A stretch of DNA of 64,000 nt from Streptomyces tendae. Lineage in GTDB: Bacteria > Actinomycetota > Actinomycetes > Streptomycetales > Streptomycetaceae. Each line of letters opens with the position of its first letter. Position 1 is the first letter of the stretch. Shown here in pieces: positions 3,881 to 12,861 of this stretch. The translations under genes were made by a program, and so were the position numbers. The notes beneath the pieces are model-generated. The model was not told the DNA's origin and did not search any database. It was given only the letters and a program-made list of their open reading frames with translations. The stretch spans positions 2,666,001 to 2,730,000 of the forward strand of contig NZ_CP043959.1 of NCBI RefSeq assembly GCF_008632955.1, written 5' to 3'.

Positions 3881-4660
3881 TCACCACCCCGGGCGGGGCT
3901 CCCGGTGGGCGAAGGCCGCGCGCACCTGCGGTTCGCCCACCGCGTGCACCCCGCGCACCGCGACGGAGGTGAGGTAGGCGCGGTCGTCGTCGGTGTCACC
4001 GGCCGCCGCCCGGCACGCGGAGTCCAGCAGCCGCTGTCCGGCGGGGGAGGCCCAGCGAGAGGCGGGGTGCGCCTCGAACCGCGCTATGGCCAGGCAGCCC
4101 AGCGTGAACACCAGGGGCAGCGCGAACCACAGGGCGACCAGATGGCGCGGCATCCCCGACGGGACCGGCATGAGCAGCGCGACGGCCCCGAGCCCGGCCA
4201 CGGCCGGCGCCGCGAGCCGCAGCCGGCGGACCGCCTCCCCGACGCTCCGACCGGCACCCTCGGGCACCGCGAGTCCGGCGCGGACCAGCCGGTCCGCCAG
4301 CGCGCGCACTGCCTCCGTGGCCGCCGCGGCCTTCCGCACCGGCGCTATGGGCGACTGCCCGTCCGGCCCGATCGCCCCGATCACCGTCCGCTCCATGTCG
4401 TCCCGCCCGCGCGGATCGACGACGGTGGCCCAGCCGGTGTGGGCCAGCAGCAGCCGCCGCTGACGGGCCATCGCGACGAGCGTGACGTCGGCCACCCGGG
4501 CGGGGCCGCCGGACAGGAACGCCGCCTCGTACAACGTCAGGCCGCGCCCCTCTCCCGCGCCGTCACCGGCCGCCGCGTCACGCACCGCGGCGAGACACAG
4601 CCGCAGACAGGAGATCCCGGCGATCGCCCAGGCCAGGAGCAGGAGAGGAACCCAGAACAT
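3881..4660 (-). CDS. TIGR04222-type membrane protein
   Basis: The 259-residue membrane protein resembles the TIGR04222 family: an N-terminal helix (MFWVPLLLLAWAIAG), then the family-like stretch LTLYEAAFLSGGPARVADVTLVAMARQRRLL, a soluble part, and two further hydrophobic segments around residues 165-215. Function is unknown. Many members end in a long Gly/Cys-rich low-complexity tail; this one ends in REPRPGW with no such tail and has only a few scattered Cys. Start at 4660 fits the family N-terminus, although no clear ribosome binding site precedes it. The DUF692 enzyme encoded just beyond the lipoprotein gene is a likely functional partner, an inference from proximity. Confidence 0.78.
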   Translation of the reverse strand: MFWVPLLLLAWAIAGISCLRLCLAAVRDAAAGDGAGEGRGLTLYEAAFLSGGPARVADVTLVAMARQRRLLLAHTGWATVVDPRGRDDMERTVIGAIGPDGQSPIAPVRKAAAATEAVRALADRLVRAGLAVPEGAGRSVGEAVRRLRLAAPAVAGLGAVALLMPVPSGMPRHLVALWFALPLVFTLGCLAIARFEAHPASRWASPAGQRLLDSACRAAAGDTDDDRAYLTSVAVRGVHAVGEPQVRAAFAHREPRPGW

Positions 4661-4797
4661 GGGTTGTTTGTAAGGGACACGGTCGCGAGAACACCATGCC
4701 TTGTTCACCATGCGGACACGGTGTCGCGGGCGGGTGGCGATCCGCGGAGTCGTCCCATGACATTCTGGCGACGATCATCAGCGGGAGGGACGGCACG

Positions 4798-5268
4798 ATG
4801 CGGGTCAAGGGAAGTCGGCGACGCCGATGGAGCTGGAGTGTGGCGGCGGCAGCCGTGGTGTTGGCGGCCGGCTGCTCGCCAGGCGGTGACTCCGGCGACC
4901 CCGTGACGGCCGCCGGTGAGAACGGGGTCGGCGCGCAGCCCACACCCACACCCTCACCCACACCCACGGTGTCCGCCTCCGCCAGCCCCGCCCCGCCCCT
5001 GAAGGACGGCACCGCCGTACTCGTCCGCTGCGCGGACATGGAGGACCCGTACGCGACCGTGGAGATCAGGAATCCCAACGCACGTGAGGCCCTGCTGGAG
5101 GTCAAGACCCACTTCGTCGACGCGTACGGCTCCCCCCTGCTGGACACCAGCAATCAGGTGGACGTCCCCGCGAAGGACAAGGTCACGTACCGGGTGCCCG
5201 CCAAGTTCCAGTACACCGACCGGATCGCGCACTGCGAGGTCGAACCAGTGGTACGTGCCGTCCGGTGA
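4798..5268 (+). CDS. Small secreted lipoprotein with Thr-Pro linker
   Basis: The 156-residue product has a basic N-terminus (MRVKGSRRRRWSW), a hydrophobic stretch and a lipobox (LAAGC, Cys about residue 25), followed by a disordered TPTPSPTPT linker and a compact beta-rich domain of about 95 residues. GGGAGGGA precedes the ATG with good spacing. The fold of the C-terminal domain is not recognised; it resembles small FxLYD/DUF-type extracellular beta domains (VRCADMEDPYATVEIRNPNA). It lies between, and is transcribed oppositely to, the TIGR04222 and DUF692 genes, so shared function is only suggested by position. Confidence 0.85.
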   Translation: MRVKGSRRRRWSWSVAAAAVVLAAGCSPGGDSGDPVTAAGENGVGAQPTPTPSPTPTVSASASPAPPLKDGTAVLVRCADMEDPYATVEIRNPNAREALLEVKTHFVDAYGSPLLDTSNQVDVPAKDKVTYRVPAKFQYTDRIAHCEVEPVVRAVR

Positions 5269-5318
5269 CGTGGGGTTCGCCCGGGAGCCCGGGGACGAAC
5301 ACCCGGTGCGGACCCGCG

Positions 5319-6644
5319 TCAGCGTCGCAGCAGGGCGCGGCGGGTCGCGCGGGCCAGGCGGATGACCGGGCGGGCCGGGCGGGGCCTCGGGCCTGAGCGG
5401 TCGAGCCACCAGGCGCGCAGCTCGCGCCGCGCCCGCGTGTCCTCGGGCCGCCCGGTCAGCAGTAGTTCCTCGGCGAAGTCCATCGCGTCGCGCCGGTACC
5501 CGCCGGTCATCGGCCGCGTCTGCGCGTACGCGAGGAAGGCCGCCCGGTAGCCGTCGCCGAGGATCACCGGCAGCTCGGGCGCCACCTTGGCGACGACATC
5601 GGCCCGCTTGGCGGCCAGCGCCCGCGCCTGCACCCTCATCCGCGCCCGGTCGAACCCCTCGGGCACCGGCGTCCCCGCGGTCAGCGCGGACAGCACCGCG
5701 GTCTGCGCGAGCGCCAGCCGCTCCCGGGCCGGCGCGGTCCCGCCCTCGACGGCAACAACGTTCCGCGTCGGTGCGTACGCCGGGGCCGGGGTCTCCCGCC
5801 GCTTCCGCGCCCCCGCCTCCACCGCGCGCCCGATCGCGTCCAGTTCGCCCTTCAGCTCCGTCGGGGCCGGGAAGTTCTCGTCCCGCTCCAGCAGCACACC
5901 CGGCGGCGAGACGCGGGACGCGAGGTCGGTGAGGATGTCGAGCACCGGCCGCGGCACCGGGTGGGCGTGGCTGTCGTGCCACACGCCGTCCCGCTCGAGG
6001 CCGCCCGCGACATGGACGTACGCGATGGCCTCCAGGGGCAGTTCGGCGAGCGCCTCGGCCGGGTCCTCGCCGCGGTTGACGTGGTTGGTGTGCAGGTTGG
6101 CGACATCGATGAGCAGCCGTACGCCGGTGCGGTCGGCCAGCTCGTACAGGAACTGGCCCTCCGTCATCTCCTCGCCGGGCCAGGAGAACAGCGCGGCGAT
6201 GTTCTCCACGGCGAGGGGCACCGGCAACGCGTCCTGCGCGATGCGGACGTTCTCGCAGAGCACGTCCAAAGCGTCACGGGTGCGCGGCACCGGCAGCAGG
6301 TGCCCGGCCTCGCTTCCGGGGGATGCGGTCAGCGGCCCGCCCGCCCGCACGAACGCGATGTGCTCGGTGACCAGGGGCGATCCGAGCGCCGTGGCCCGCT
6401 CGGCGAGGGCGGTCAGCCGCTGCTCGTCCGGCCGGTCCCCGCCGCCGAGGCCCAGCGAGACACCGTGCGGGACGACGGTCACCCCGCGCTCGCGCAACCG
6501 CAGCAGCGACTCGGGCAGGTGCCCGGGGCAGACGTTCTCGGCCACCGCCTCGACCCAGTCGATCCCCGGCATCGCCTCGACCGCGTCCGCGATCTCCGGC
6601 CGCCAGCCGATCCCCGTACCCAGTCGCACCGTCATCCCCGTCAT
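5319..6644 (-). CDS. DUF692 (MNIO-type) enzyme fused to a partner-like C-terminal domain
   Basis: The 441-residue protein opens with a complete DUF692 TIM barrel (residues about 5-275). Candidate metal ligands lie in VVPHGVSLG (His60), TEHIAF (His95), AVENIA (Glu147), [12 protein letters not shown] (Asp180, His185, His188), YVHVAGG (His211), DSHAHP (His226, His228) and LLERDENFP (Glu253). DUF692 enzymes (now called multinuclear non-heme iron oxygenases, e.g. MbnB, TglH) modify Cys or other residues of ribosomal peptides. Residues about 305-400 form an alpha-helical domain ([22 protein letters not shown]-like, [12 protein letters not shown]) resembling the DUF2063/HvfC-type partner domain normally encoded separately; that match is by eye. 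The tail is Arg-rich. ATG 6644 follows GGAGGGGA. No peptide substrate is obvious nearby. Confidence 0.88.
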
Positions 6645-7213
6645 CCCCGTCCCCTCCCTCACCCGGCGTACCGCCCGGCCCCCGGTTCCGCCCGCACGGG
6701 CGTGCCGGGGATATGACCCCGGGCTCCGCGCCCGAACCGTCCTCCGGCCGCCTTCAGAGGAACATTTGAGGTTCGGGGTGGTCCGTCGCAGCGGGCGTCG
6801 GAACCGCCGCCGGACGACGGCTTCGGGCGCCGCGACGGCGAACCCTCCCTCACGGTGAGGGCACCGACGGCCGCCCGTTTACCCCAGCGGGCACACGACG
6901 ATTGCAGCGGCTCTCGCGCTCGCCATGGCCTCGTGGTGCGCGGGCGTGCGCGAGCGCTGGCTGCGGTACTCGGGGTACTGCTGACGGCCGGGGTGGCGCT
7001 GTGACACCCGCGAGCAGTGTCCGCGTGGCCGCGGGACGGCTCATGGAGCAGGAGGCCGGCGTCGGCCCGGGAAGAAGGCGTCTCCCCTGGGGCACGCTCG
7101 AACGCCCCCCTCCCGGGCCGTCCTGGCGTACCTCGCCGGAACTGGACCGGACGTGTCCGGCCGGTCGGGCGACGGCCGGGGATCCGGGCGTCGTGCGGCC
7201 GCCGGCCGCAGGT
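6645..7213. other. 569-nt gap with possible decayed signal-peptide remnant
   Basis: No convincing gene is seen. A short frame at 6933-7004 (GTG start, 23 residues, ALAAVLGVLLTAGVAL core) looks like a signal peptide or lipoprotein N-terminus that stops at once, possibly a gene remnant. A 6-bp hairpin (CCGGGG-atatga-CCCCGG) lies at 6705-6722 just upstream of the DUF692 gene. Confidence 0.4.
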
Positions 7214-9274
7214 CTAACGCACCTGGAAGGCCGTCGACACGCCCGTGATCGGGGAGACCTTCCCGCCCAGGCTCTTCGCGTCGCCGTGGTAGACGACCCG
7301 GTAGGTGCCCGAGGGGGTCCCCTGGGGGACGTCCCAGGTGATCGTGACCTTGGACGCGGCGACGCCGTCGCGGGCCCACTGGAAGCGGGTCGTCCAGTCG
7401 CCGTCGTCGGCGACGGTGTGCCAGGCGCCGCCGGAGTCCCGGCGCTCGATCCGCAGGTAGGTGTCGCCGCGGTGCAGGTCGTTGCCGGGGTGGGCGCCCG
7501 CGAAGACCACCTCGACGCGCTCACCCGGACGGTAGGTCTCCCGCGGCCTCACCAGCACGTCACCGAACTTCCGGAACAGCGGCGGCGCGTCCAGGACCAC
7601 CCCGGGCTGCAGCGCGAGCGCCTTGCCGGTCAGGTCCGGCGGCTCGGGGCCGAGGGGCAGGCTCGTGCCGTCGCGCAGGGAGACCGCCAGCTCGGCCGCG
7701 GTCTGCTGGAGCGCCGGGAGCTGCCAGCGGCCGAAGAGGGTGCTGCCGCCCTCGTACTGCTGGGCGTCGTACTCCTCGGGCGTCGTCACGTAGTGGAAGT
7801 ACGCGTTGCTGTACCCGGCGACCAGGACGTCGTCGAGAGGGGCGCCGACGATCCCGGCGACCGTGCGCCGCAGCCGCAGACCCGCGCACACGGTGACCTC
7901 GCCGGGGATGCCGATCAGGTACAGGGCGCCGATGCGCACCAGCATCACCGGCACCCGTTCCTGCACCCACGGGTAGATCCGGTTCATCTCCCCGATCGGC
8001 ACGAAGACGTCCTTCGGTGCCTGCGCCTGCTTCAGCTCCTGGGACACCGTGTAGATCAGGGAGTTGGAGATCGCGTCCCAGAACGGGTTCTCGCCCTCGT
8101 CGAACCCGGGGAAGGCCGGCCCGTCCTCCAGGCTTCCCGCCGCCATGGCCGCGCCGACGCACGGCTTGGACGTCCGGTGGGTCCGCCCGTCACCGGTGAA
8201 TTCCGGGCGCACCGTGACGTCGGAGAGGTCGATGTACACCAGCCGGGAGTCGACCGGGCCCGCCAGCGGTGCGCCGGGCCCCTCCGCCTGGGCCGCGGCC
8301 GCCTCGTACTGCCGCAGCCCACTGGCCCGGGTCGACTCGAAGTCGGCGGGCGTCGTCGGCGGAACGAGGTCCAGGTTGGGGGACATGTCGCCGCTGTTGG
8401 TCTGGGCGAACGCCGAGACGAACGCCGGGGAGCCGTCGGCCAGATAGTCCACCCCGTGGACCTCGCGCTCCCAGTGGTACGCCGCGTAGCCCTTGTTGTC
8501 GGCGCTGATCAGGCGGTTGTCGCCGGACATGCTGGTGCCGTGCACCGGGAACCAGTTGACCGCCCCGACGGTACGGCCGTCCCGCTCCACCCGCAGCAGC
8601 GTGGTGAGGGGGTCGACGGCGTCGGGGAAGTGGTCGCGGTCGGTCTTCGGGTTGCGGTCGAAGGCGGTCCGTGAGCGGTTGACGCTGGCGCCGGTCAAGG
8701 TGCCGTGGCTCAGCAGCAGTTCGGAGGGGGCGAGGTCCTCGTGGGCGTTGCGCGCCGCCTCGAACAGGCCGTCCGCCACCGCCTCGAAGGTCGCCTTGTG
8801 GAAGCCGAACGTCGTGGTGTTGTACAGCAGATGGTGCGAGTATCCGCCGGGACCGGCGTGCGTGTGGGTGGCGGTGATCAGCACGTTCTGCTCGGTGTAC
8901 AGGTCGCTGTACGCCTGCTTCAGCCGTCGCAGCACGGCCCGGTGCACGCTTTCGAAGATCATGGGGGAGTCGGCGACGATCAGCAGCACACGGCGGCCGC
9001 TCGCCTCCTCGACCACCACGAACGCCCGTGCCCGCAGCCGGGTGTGCAGACCCGCGGCCTGCTGGTCGAACCGGCCGTACCCCATCATGCCGACCTCGGC
9101 CACCTCACCGGTGGCGTCGGAGATGCCCCGGCCGACCAGGTAGCCGCCGCCTCCCGCGGCGGCGGCAGCGGCGCCCGGGGCGACCAGATGGGCGCCCGCC
9201 AGCCCGAGGCCGGTGACGGCACCGGCCTTCAGGACGGTCCGGCGGCTGCGCGACGGAGGACGTTTCGCGGTCAT
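7214..9274 (-). CDS. Neutral/alkaline non-lysosomal ceramidase, Tat-exported
   Basis: Predicted secreted neutral ceramidase that hydrolyses the N-acyl bond of ceramide. The 686-residue product carries a twin-arginine signal (SRSRRTVLKAG, then a hydrophobic stretch ending near GAAAAAAG). Family features include MMGYGRFDQQAAGLHTRLRARAF, the Zn-site stretch ITATHTHAGPGGYSHH, and GTSMSGDNRLISADNKG in the catalytic region. The last 120 residues form the usual C-terminal immunoglobulin-like domain (YRPGERVEVVFAGAHPGND). ATG 9274 is preceded by GAGGAG at good spacing. The natural substrate is uncertain because Streptomyces is not known to make abundant ceramide; scavenging host or soil sphingolipids is an inference. 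Confidence 0.93.
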   Translation of the reverse strand: MTAKRPPSRSRRTVLKAGAVTGLGLAGAHLVAPGAAAAAAGGGGYLVGRGISDATGEVAEVGMMGYGRFDQQAAGLHTRLRARAFVVVEEASGRRVLLIVADSPMIFESVHRAVLRRLKQAYSDLYTEQNVLITATHTHAGPGGYSHHLLYNTTTFGFHKATFEAVADGLFEAARNAHEDLAPSELLLSHGTLTGASVNRSRTAFDRNPKTDRDHFPDAVDPLTTLLRVERDGRTVGAVNWFPVHGTSMSGDNRLISADNKGYAAYHWEREVHGVDYLADGSPAFVSAFAQTNSGDMSPNLDLVPPTTPADFESTRASGLRQYEAAAAQAEGPGAPLAGPVDSRLVYIDLSDVTVRPEFTGDGRTHRTSKPCVGAAMAAGSLEDGPAFPGFDEGENPFWDAISNSLIYTVSQELKQAQAPKDVFVPIGEMNRIYPWVQERVPVMLVRIGALYLIGIPGEVTVCAGLRLRRTVAGIVGAPLDDVLVAGYSNAYFHYVTTPEEYDAQQYEGGSTLFGRWQLPALQQTAAELAVSLRDGTSLPLGPEPPDLTGKALALQPGVVLDAPPLFRKFGDVLVRPRETYRPGERVEVVFAGAHPGNDLHRGDTYLRIERRDSGGAWHTVADDGDWTTRFQWARDGVAASKVTITWDVPQGTPSGTYRVVYHGDAKSLGGKVSPITGVSTAFQVR

Positions 9275-9444
9275 ACGCTGCTCCTCAGGGTCGGTCGGCC
9301 CCCGGCGGGCAAAACATGAACAACATTCAAGTTCCGCGCGCCTCATTGGTACACCGCCCGACATGAACACGGCAAGAGGTGTGCACGGGGCAGGAGAACC
9401 CCCGGCGCGGCCCCGACGCCGGGACGAGAGCGCCACGCCGACAC

Positions 9445-9511
9445 CCGCACCTGCGCCACGACGAAGCCGGCCCGGGGCCCCCGCACCTGCGGCACGACGA
9501 AGCCGGCCCGG
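9445..9511. repeat. 36-nt tandem duplication, two copies
   Basis: CCGCACCTGC begins a unit at 9445 and again at 9481; about 31 of the first 32 bases of each copy match (GCCACGACGAAGCCGGCCCG versus GGCACGACGAAGCCGGCCCG). Noncoding and adjacent to a terminator hairpin. Confidence 0.8.
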
Positions 9512-9512
9512 T

Positions 9513-9533
9513 GGGCCCGTTCACGACGGGCCC
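9513..9533. terminator. Hairpin downstream of TAP-type lipoprotein gene
   Basis: Perfect 8-bp stem GGGCCCGT / ACGGGCCC with loop TCACG, about 45 nt past the stop of the minus-strand gene ending at 9577. No T-tract follows. Confidence 0.6.
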
Positions 9534-9576
9534 GGCGGGCCGGCTCGGCGGTCTCAGTGCCGGTACCGGACCGGTG

Positions 9577-11175
9577 TCACCCCTTGCCCCGCAGCGGCTC
9601 CCGCTCGCAGACGGTCCCCGCGGCCGGCACCGCGCCCTCCAGCAGGTAGGCGTTCACGGCCTCACGCACACAGGTGTTGCCGGAGTCGTACGCGCCGTGG
9701 CCCTCGCCCTCGTAGGTGAGTTCCACGCCGACGCCCTCGCCGAGCCGTTCGGCCATCCGCGCGGCACCCCCGTACGGGGTGGCGGGGTCACCGGTGTTGC
9801 CGACGAGCAGCACCGGCGGCGCGCCCGGCGCCCGCACGTCCGGGTGCTCGGCCTTGCCGCGCACCGGCCAGCCGGTGCACTCCAGCGCGCCCCACACCAT
9901 GGTGTCCCCGAACACGGGCGACGCCTCCTCGAACGCGGGGGCCTGCTCCAGCACGTCGTCCACGGTGTAGCGGTCGCCGCGGTCGGCGCAGGTGACGGCG
10001 GTCCGGGCGTCCTGCTGGTCGCTGTAGCCCCGGGCGTGGCGGCCGCTCAGGGCGTCCGCGAGACCGAGCAGGGTCGCGCCCTCGTCGGCCGCGAGCAGTT
10101 CCAGGCCCACCTCCAGGGCGGGCCAGGCGGTCTCCAGGTACAGCGCCTGGATCACGGCGTCGATCAGCTGGGATCCGGTGAGCACCCTCTCCCCGCCGAC
10201 GGTCAGCGGCTCGTCGTCCAGGGCCGCCTCCAGTTCCATGACGAGGCCGGCCACCTCCTCGGAGCTGTCGCCGAGCGCGCACCCGGTGTCCACGCACCAC
10301 TGGGCGAAGTGGTCGAAGGCGAGCTGGAACCCGGCGGCCTGCGCCAGGGCTCCCTCCATCTGGTTCAGCGTGGGGTCGACGACCCCGTCCAGGACGGCCC
10401 GGCCCATGTGGCGGGGGAACAAGTGGGCGTACACGCCGCCGAGTTCGGTGCCGTAGGAGATGCCGAAGTAGTGCAGCTTGTCGTCGCCGAGGAGGTGGCG
10501 CAGCAGGTCCAGGTCGCGGGCGGCGTCCTCGGTGCCCACGTGCGGCAGCATCCGGCCCGACTCCTGTGCGCAGGCCGCCGCGTACTGCTCCCGCGCCCGC
10601 AGCACGGCGGCCACCTCGGCCTCGCCGTCGTCGGGGGTGTCGTCCTGTTCGGCCATCGCCTGTGCCGCCTCGGCGTCCAGGCAGGTGACCCCGTCGCTGG
10701 CGCCGACCCCGCGCGGGTCGAAGCTCACCAGGTCGTAGCGGGACCGGAGGTGCTCGTAGTCGGAGGCGAGGGCGGGCAGCGTGGCCACCCCGGACTCGCC
10801 CGGCCCGCCGAAGTTGAACAGCAGCGAGCCGATGCGGTCGGCGGTGTCCGCGCGGGACGCCGCCCGGATCAGGGCGAGCTCGGTCGTCGCGCCGTCGGGT
10901 CTGTCCCAGTCCAGCGGCGCCCGCGCGGTGGCGCACTGCCAGCGGGTGCCGTCCGGCAACGGCTCGGGCGCGTCTCCGCCGCCCTGCAAGGGGGACGGGG
11001 CGGGGCAGTCCTTCCAGTCGAGGGACTGCGCCCATATCCGTCCGCGGTCGTCCTCCTCGCCGCCTCCGCCTCCCGCGCCGCCCTCGCCCGCCGGGCCGCA
11101 GGCGGCCAGGGAGGCGGAGAGCAGGACGGCACCGGACAGCAGGGCAGCAGTGGCTGTCGTACGTCGTGTCGGCAT
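9577..11175 (-). CDS. TAP-type alpha/beta-hydrolase lipoprotein
   Basis: Second tripeptidyl-aminopeptidase-like serine hydrolase in the window, here membrane-anchored. The 532-residue product has a lipoprotein signal with lipobox (SASLAAC) followed by a Gly/Glu-rich linker. The oxyanion region is FNFGGPGESG, the nucleophile elbow YFGISYGTELGGVYA, the Asp in GNTGDPATPYGG, and the His in EGEGHGAYDSGNTC. ATG 11175 lies after GGAGG (spacing about 7). Compared with the 2144-3757 paralogue it differs in anchoring (lipidated rather than released). Probable role is peptide trimming at the cell surface. Confidence 0.9.
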   Translation of the reverse strand: MPTRRTTATAALLSGAVLLSASLAACGPAGEGGAGGGGGEEDDRGRIWAQSLDWKDCPAPSPLQGGGDAPEPLPDGTRWQCATARAPLDWDRPDGATTELALIRAASRADTADRIGSLLFNFGGPGESGVATLPALASDYEHLRSRYDLVSFDPRGVGASDGVTCLDAEAAQAMAEQDDTPDDGEAEVAAVLRAREQYAAACAQESGRMLPHVGTEDAARDLDLLRHLLGDDKLHYFGISYGTELGGVYAHLFPRHMGRAVLDGVVDPTLNQMEGALAQAAGFQLAFDHFAQWCVDTGCALGDSSEEVAGLVMELEAALDDEPLTVGGERVLTGSQLIDAVIQALYLETAWPALEVGLELLAADEGATLLGLADALSGRHARGYSDQQDARTAVTCADRGDRYTVDDVLEQAPAFEEASPVFGDTMVWGALECTGWPVRGKAEHPDVRAPGAPPVLLVGNTGDPATPYGGAARMAERLGEGVGVELTYEGEGHGAYDSGNTCVREAVNAYLLEGAVPAAGTVCEREPLRGKG

Positions 11176-11230
11176 GGGCTCAGCCTCCGGCGGCCCCACC
11201 GCCGCCGCACGGCCGCACACCCATCCGGGG

Positions 11231-11343: not shown

Positions 11344-12060
11344 CTAGCGCAGCGCCGGGTGGTCCGCGACCACGGTGCACGACCCCGGGGCGATCTCCGT
11401 GAAGCCGGCGTCGCGCACCATGGGCAGGCCCCCGCCGGTCAGCGCGGGCCAGTCGGCCGGGTCGGCGGTGCGCACGGCGAGCGGGAAGCCGGCCGCGCGC
11501 CAGGCCTCACGGGCCGCGTCCGGCAGCTCCCACCAGGCCAGTTGGGCACCGTGACCGGCCTGGGCCATGGCCTTGCCGGCCGACATCCCAGCGCGGGTTC
11601 AGCCAGAGCGTGGGGACGCCGGGTCGGCCGGGGGCACCGGGTCCGGGTCGTCGAGGTCCGTGCCGGAGACCTGGAGACGGGCCAGGTCCTTCGGCCAGCC
11701 GTCCAGGGGGACCGGCGGGAAGACACGCACCTCGGCCGCCTTGCCGGTGACGGTGATCCCGGGAAGCGCCTCGGCGCGCCGCCACTCCGCGCCGCGCGCC
11801 CGGCGCACCACCTTGCGGATGCGGGCGTCCTGCCAGTCCCGCACCGCCCGGGCCCACTCGCCGTCGCCCACCGAGCGCTCGTCGGTCAGCATCACCAGGA
11901 CCGCGCGGGCGGCCGTCTCCAGGGCGTCCGTGCGGGCCGGCGGTGAGCCGCGCTCGATGCGGACCACCAGGGGCAGCACGAACTGGGGGGCCTCGTCACG
12001 GGAGCCCGGGTCGGGCCGGAAGGGGCTGTCGGGGTCGGGCGTCGTCCGGTCGTCGTTCAC
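11344..12060 (-). pseudogene. PTH2-type peptidyl-tRNA hydrolase, broken by two frameshifts
   Basis: Encodes the Streptomyces aminoacyl/peptidyl-tRNA hydrolase of the PTH2 kind in three frames. Frame one, from GTG 12060 (VNDDRTTPDPDSPF), covers the N-terminal domain to about 11630 and then meets a stop (PASPRSG). The next stretch, VPTLWLNPRWD (about 11590-11625), is read in a second frame. The catalytic stretch MSAGKAMAQAGHGAQLAWW to the end (ADHPALR) is in a third frame from 11586. One lost base near the DPG/VPT junction and two lost bases at the D-M junction (a GACATG-like sequence reduced to GATG) would explain it, and together they restore phase. The break is at the edge of the PTH2 domain. 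Either a real pseudogene or two sequencing errors about 35 nt apart; separate translation from ATG 11586 is possible. Confidence 0.82.
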
Positions 12061-12163
12061 CCGCCCAGTGTGCCAAGCCGGACGCCGGCCGTGACGGCCG
12101 GCTCGGTCAGACATCAAGGGGCGCCGAGCGGGCACGAGGGTGGGGGGAAGGGGCTGATGAGCG

Positions 12164-12669: not shown

Positions 12670-12861
12670 TCAGCCGGAGCAGGCCGTGCGTTCTGCTTCG
12701 CGCCATTCGCAGGTGGGGCACAGGGTGATGCCCTTGTACGTCTCCGGGTACTCCGTCGGCTCCTGGCAGAGCACGCACGCCGCGTACGGCGGGCCGTCCG
12801 CCTTCGGGGGCGTCTCCGTGCGGACGAGGCAGTAGTCGCGGTCGGTGCCGTTGTCGCTCAT
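12670..12861 (-). CDS. Small zinc-ribbon protein
   Basis: A 63-residue acidic protein with paired CxxC motifs (AACVLCQEP at about 29-32 and TLCPTCEW at about 48-51), the arrangement of a small zinc ribbon; further Cys occur at positions 11 and 61. Function unknown. GGAGG sits only 1 nt before the ATG, unusually close, so the true start or leader is uncertain. The next gene on the same strand lies 18 nt upstream (12880), suggesting co-transcription with the deacetylase. Confidence 0.72.
   Translation of the reverse strand: MSDNGTDRDYCLVRTETPPKADGPPYAACVLCQEPTEYPETYKGITLCPTCEWREAERTACSG

Follow-up and report, generated by a model that had tools for sequence, protein, structure and literature searches.

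The locus and its conserved MNIO enzyme

The window, by which we mean the whole 64,000-nucleotide stretch of DNA analysed, encodes an MNIO enzyme with a C-terminal extension, a TIGR04222 membrane protein and a small lipoprotein, with the following features.

5319..6662, minus strand: MNIO ORF, with the likely ATG at 6644, giving 441 aa
5790..6644, minus strand: MNIO (DUF692/PF05114) catalytic domain, residues 1-285, by Pfam match and TglH alignment
5739..5789, minus strand: variable linker of about 17 aa from the MNIO to the partner domain, with boundaries by profile search
5331..5738, minus strand: predicted fused partner domain (PME-type 2/TglI-like, helical), about residues 303-438, by standalone homologues, AlphaFold and TglI match
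3881..4660, minus strand: TIGR04222 membrane protein of 259 aa without a Cys tail ("type B"; ORF 3881..4711, likely ATG at 4660), by NCBIfam
4798..5268, plus strand: 156-aa lipoprotein, outside the MNIO system

The DUF692 enzyme of the original prediction was borne out by a Pfam search, in which the intact 441-aa ORF matched PF05114 with an E-value of 8.6e-76 (255 bits against a cut-off of 25), and codon-position bias backed both minus-strand genes. By alignment to 8hci/8hi7 and 3bww, using the TglH ligand list of PMC10880893, the positions H60, H95, E147, D180, N183, H211, D224, H226 and E253 were found to correspond to the TglH ligands, the two N-terminal His of the set being assigned by motif. 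None of the nine varied in any of the 89 Streptomyces sequences compared, with or without a Cys-tail gene, and the window MNIO domain, as read from its sequence, looks intact and active. With the HvfB, BufB and ApyH equivalog models of NCBIfam, the window MNIO scored 139.6, 173.7 and 115.1 bits, thus staying below the cut-offs of 360, 310 and 400, respectively.

In the window genome, a genome-wide profile search detected no MNIO other than this one. The MNIO profile was present, usually in single copy, in 96 of 101 sampled Streptomyces genomes (95%), as against 15 of the 296 genomes sampled across the phylum, and the Streptomyces fusion enzyme is strongly conserved, with a mean identity of 86%. 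By profile distribution, the MNIO is a core enzyme of Streptomyces. At loci of their own (L004, L005, L006), a few Streptomyces have an extra MNIO whose PF05114 type differs and scores far higher (358-371 bits).

The MNIO locus is syntenic across Streptomyces, where the common order is a PTH2-like gene, the MNIO gene, a Cys-tailed TIGR04222 gene where present, a DUF4142 gene, a tail-less TIGR04222 gene and a TAP-like peptidase gene, followed on the other strand by hemQ and then a protoporphyrinogen-oxidase-like gene. The lipoprotein, named as a neighbour in the original prediction, is not part of the system. It is encoded on the plus strand, and none of the other MNIO loci examined has a homologue of it, so that we regard it as a bystander and reject it as partner or substrate.

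Several further observations concern the surroundings of the enzyme gene. The PTH2-like gene (11344-12135), usually just upstream, lies 4.7 kb from the MNIO gene in the window, where a neutral ceramidase and a second TAP-like peptidase (7214-11220) separate the two; in most relatives they are close. It is broken here by an in-frame stop at 11599-11601, and forms a single intact frame in relatives. A 63-aa protein with the look of a zinc ribbon (CxxC...CxxC; 12670-12861) is conserved near the MNIO in about 19 loci.

The fused partner domain

In a Pfam search of the window protein, no family covered the C-terminal ~130 residues of the MNIO. Among 80 non-Streptomyces loci (Micromonospora, Actinoplanes, Actinomadura and others), chosen by MNIO similarity alone, a standalone partner gene followed the MNIO in all 80, with a profile E-value of 1e-13 or better, and these genes overlap the MNIO stop, nearly always by a 4-nt ATGA. 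The single window sequence, when used as the query, recovered 38 of the 80 standalone partners (best E-value 4.5e-16). At the Streptomyces loci, the partner is fused behind the MNIO in 82 and encoded by a separate gene at the MNIO stop in 8, the linker of the fused proteins measuring 13-256 aa in other Streptomyces. A quick MNIO tree places the split L037/L097 pair within the fused rows.

The AlphaFold model of the window partner domain, obtained with 72 homologues (151 aa, pLDDT 85.6), is all helical, with no strands, and too short for a full RRE (winged helix). The best two PDB chains by VIA-align were both TglI of the TglH-TglI complex, with 8hi7_A at Z 7.1 (3.3 A over 116 residues) and the second at Z 6.8, and the next unrelated row followed at Z 3.7. 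Neither the partner-domain model nor the TIGR04222 model obtained a significant E-value from Foldseek against the PDB, and a search of the PDB by sequence with the partner profile gave no meaningful match. Helical models commonly give middling Z values, and the TglI match counts mainly because the TglI family had already been predicted by gene order.

For residues ~305-400, the original prediction had proposed a partner-like domain of the DUF2063/HvfC kind, to be checked by HMM and structure. The fused partner stood, through the standalone homologues (80 of 80, plus the 8 in Streptomyces) and TglI as the best fold match; the HvfC type did not, as the DUF2063 Pfam signature is absent from the window protein and matched only 2 of 73 partner members (best E-value 0.018), which places the window partner in PME-type 2 and not in HvfC/type 1. 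The window domain shows traits of PME-type 2, namely homologues encoded right after the MNIO, no Pfam DUF2063 in the window domain and a structural relation to TglI. In addition, the standalone partner of M. matsumotoense has 158 aa and agrees with PME-type 2 model B of PMC12452194 in organism and length, the two features on which it was matched. On these alignments and models, we conclude that the C-terminal domain of the window MNIO is a fused PME-type 2 partner, and that the protein is a natural one-chain enzyme.

Loss of the linked Cys-tail gene and candidate substrates in trans

The window TIGR04222 protein matched its NCBIfam model with an E-value of 5.8e-47 (160.3 bits against a cut-off of 43), and its AlphaFold model reached a pLDDT of 84.5. 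It had been predicted to be without the usual Cys tail, leaving the substrate in cis not obvious, and it indeed lacks a Cys/Gly tail, carrying four Cys at 18, 22, 189 and 216, three of which fall within predicted TM helices. The model of its core resembles GOLPH3/Vps74 (Z 8.5, 6.9 and 6.7), and among TIGR04222 relatives Pfam DUF2207_C matched 37 of 62 (best E-value 5e-5) and GPP34 matched 2 (0.005); this likeness, drawn from a model, is suggestive only.

At all 70 non-Streptomyces loci with readable upstream DNA, the gene directly upstream of the MNIO encodes a TIGR04222 protein with a Cys/Gly/Ser tail. Two types occur in Streptomyces. Type A bears a Cys tail and is encoded immediately downstream of the fusion; type B is tail-less, and the two coexist in many genomes. 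The window locus has type B only, and a genome-wide search found no further full TIGR04222 member in the window genome. On the quick MNIO tree, type A is missing from the locus in a clade of 38 rows that includes the window, with the exception of L103, and is sporadically absent in a few rows elsewhere. Read from gene content and this tree, the window clade has lost the adjacent Cys-tail TIGR04222 gene and keeps the tail-less paralogue.

The adjacent type B protein might itself be the substrate, modified at transmembrane or non-Cys residues. It adjoins the MNIO on the same strand, and, as a check of gene order across Streptomyces revealed, about 30 of the 40 loci without type A retain a TIGR04222 neighbour. 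However, its Cys lie mostly inside predicted TM helices, it coexists with the Cys-tailed type A in many genomes, and the MNIO-bearing genomes G013, G023 and G044 have no TIGR04222 at all, which weakens type B as a general substrate. We thus consider this explanation quite improbable.

With the usual neighbouring substrate gone in the window lineage, the likely targets would be small membrane peptides with cysteine tails, the genes of which lie elsewhere in the chromosome. The original prediction had suggested looking elsewhere for small Cys-rich ORFs that co-occur with the enzyme, and this search succeeded. We scanned the window genome for a single Cys spacing, C-x4-C in a Gly/Ser context, so that further tail proteins may exist in the genome. 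Two candidates outside the window are considered below.

G000:C1:226742-227014 (L304:7743-8015): 91-aa peptide with a TM helix, a WW motif and a Cys tail, by pattern scan
G000:C1:2839740-2840480 (L003, L147): TIGR04222-like, soluble-looking protein with the tail YCGGAFSCAGGEGSGGCGGGGGCGGGGGN and four tail Cys, by a weak TIGR04222 search match

Two other pattern matches (L302, L303) were set aside, since neither belongs to the Gly/Ser/Cys tail of a plausible gene.

The 91-aa peptide has one N-terminal TM helix, an Arg-rich stretch, the WW motif and the tail SCGSSSDGGSSCGGGSSCGGGGCGGGGG, and matched no NCBIfam and no Pfam family. The YxzE putative-bacteriocin model matched 6 of 12 of its relatives (best E-value 1.9e-5), perhaps owing to composition. 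The relatives are syntenic, lying upstream of DUF2617 and a spermidine-synthase-like membrane protein (speE; both identified by Pfam) in 36-37 of 38 loci. Upstream of the peptide gene there is a conserved stretch like CTCTGGACTTCCTCAACTCTGCTTTGG (L304, about 7600-7640), the 10-mers of which occur in about 23 of 36 loci; to judge from its sequence, it is possibly a promoter or operator.

In every one of the 36 readable genomes from the clade without type A, the peptide has at least three Cys, as it does in 58 of 62 readable genomes when the other MNIO-bearing Streptomyces are included. Four early-branching MNIO-bearing Streptomyces (G018, G034, G036, G050) have no such peptide at the locus, and the linked Cys-tail gene is present there. 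Among Streptomyces without the MNIO, the orthologue kept by G046, G049 and G088 is down to two tail Cys, and no orthologue was seen at the locus in G087; the Streptomyces without the MNIO may represent one or two events. One exception is G008, which keeps the Cys tail and in whose assembly of 740 contigs no MNIO was found.

One could suppose that the fusion enzyme of the window clade was repurposed to a non-Cys or non-peptide substrate after the loss of the tail gene, since the clade has no Cys-tail gene at the locus and the enzyme is strongly conserved (86% mean identity). The presence of the unlinked Cys-tail peptide in every readable genome of the clade speaks against this supposition and makes it very improbable.

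Across the phylum sample, the Cys-tail peptide was found in 8 of 15 genomes with the MNIO and in 0 of 281 without it, after peptide-family profile matches in G219, G110 and G371 had been discarded for want of a Cys tail. The Fisher p-value of this co-occurrence is 5e-12, and 5e-4 without Streptomyces, both uncorrected for phylogeny, which confounds the association because the eight positives comprise six Streptomyces and two members of one other genus. The tails also resemble one another in composition. The motif SCGG was counted 69 times in type A tails against 18 in shuffled sequences, 99 against 10 in non-Streptomyces TIGR04222 proteins and 77 against 8.0 in the peptides, and a preferred five-residue Cys spacing (C-x5-C) is common to all three.

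These data bear on the possibility that no enzyme modifies the Cys tails, which would then be of an ordinary low-complexity, disulphide or metal-binding kind, and that the co-occurrence with the MNIO comes from shared ancestry. The small number of independent events, the G008 exception and the frequency of Gly/Ser-rich tails in GC-rich genomes would fit such an explanation, but it leaves us to account for the absence of the Cys-tail peptide from all 281 actinobacterial genomes without the MNIO, for its occurrence in a second MNIO-bearing genus, and for a motif and spacing that match the tails genetically linked to the MNIO. We therefore regard it as unlikely.

The TIGR04222-like protein with four tail Cys is encoded 168 kb from the MNIO. 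It might be the main substrate, with the 91-aa peptide unrelated, inasmuch as it is akin to the classical TIGR04222 candidates. Of 44 genomes searched, however, only 15 yielded an orthologue, with the tail Cys varying from 0 to 4, and its relatives in the clade keep the Gly-rich tail with 0-2 Cys, which weakens it as a general substrate. As the main substrate it is thus unlikely too, slightly more so than the ordinary-tail explanation.

Proposed function and relation to known systems

We propose that the fused partner domain would hold the substrate near the di-iron site and tune that site, as in the engineered HvfB-HvfC, and that the enzyme would oxidise Cys of the S-C-G-G repeats in C-terminal Gly/Ser/Cys tails, the product probably being 5-thiooxazoles or a related metal-binding group, by analogy to HvfA. 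In the window genome, the substrates would be encoded in trans, the main one being the single-pass peptide at the speE/DUF2617 locus, with the TIGR04222-like protein as a possible second. Taken from sequence comparison and analogy, oxidation of the tail Cys of substrates in trans, chiefly of the 91-aa peptide, by a natural MNIO-partner fusion is in our judgement fairly probable. Across 18 sequences, the peptides are uncharged ahead of the TM helix and bear a mean net charge of +6 behind it. By the positive-inside rule, this pattern puts the tail on the cytoplasmic side, where a cytosolic enzyme can reach it; PMC12452194 assigns TIGR04222 tails to the periplasm, counter to this placement. The modified tails would thus be anchored in the membrane and face the cytoplasm, where they would perhaps buffer copper or another soft metal, a role in metal handling suggested by analogy only.

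The original prediction had considered the system undescribed, which proved too broad, since Antoine et al. described both MNIO-TIGR04222 loci and partners of PME-type 2 in 2025 (PMC12452194). Those loci share the enzyme family, the Cys-tailed TIGR04222 proteins as putative substrates and the short helical partner, and their cluster II (peptidyl-tRNA hydrolase - MNIO - TIGR04222) looks like the Streptomyces locus. They differ in that the partners are separate genes and the genes considered are adjacent to the MNIO; in the text searched, neither a fusion of MNIO and partner nor an unlinked Cys-tail peptide is reported.

Similarly, HvfB/HvfC of oxazolin maturation (PMC13419390) pairs an MNIO with a required partner acting on repeated Cys-Gly motifs, and an engineered HvfB-HvfC single chain, which resembles the window protein, is active (PMC13419390). 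HvfC is however a DUF2063+RRE (type 1) partner, and HvfA carries EGKCG motifs together with a Sec signal. The window partner is short, and the candidate tails here are C-terminal on membrane anchors. TglH/TglI of 3-thiaglutamate biosynthesis (PDB 8hi7, 8hci) shares the iron-ligand set and provides the best structural match (Z 7.1), but consists of two chains, its substrate Cys is added to the C-terminus of TglA, and its chemistry is a carbon excision. MovX, as cited in PMC13419390, is likewise a one-chain MNIO with a C-terminal module; this module is said to be an RRE, a description that sets it apart from the strand-free helical domain modelled here.

Three features set the window system apart from known loci: a natural single chain of enzyme and partner, a large clade in which the linked substrate gene was lost, and candidate substrates in trans. 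The natural fusion and these candidates appear to be new, as neither was described in the literature searched, little of which was subscription-only. A wider claim, that a genus-wide one-chain fusion acts on unlinked membrane-anchored peptides of ~70-130 aa with cytoplasmic S-C-G-G hexad tails, which would form a new family of in-trans MNIO substrates, and that the enzyme outlived the loss of its linked substrate gene, seems to us to lean only slightly towards likely.

To our knowledge, MNIO substrates have so far been sought beside the enzyme gene. Many TIGR04222-associated MNIOs were left without clear substrates in the 2025 landscape paper (PMC12452194). The natural one-chain MNIO-partner fusion could be used for structural and mechanistic work that has needed engineered fusions. 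If the unlinked Cys-tail peptides are substrates, gene-neighbourhood mining would be shown to miss real MNIO substrates, and an enzyme of 95% of the sampled Streptomyces would gain a testable role.
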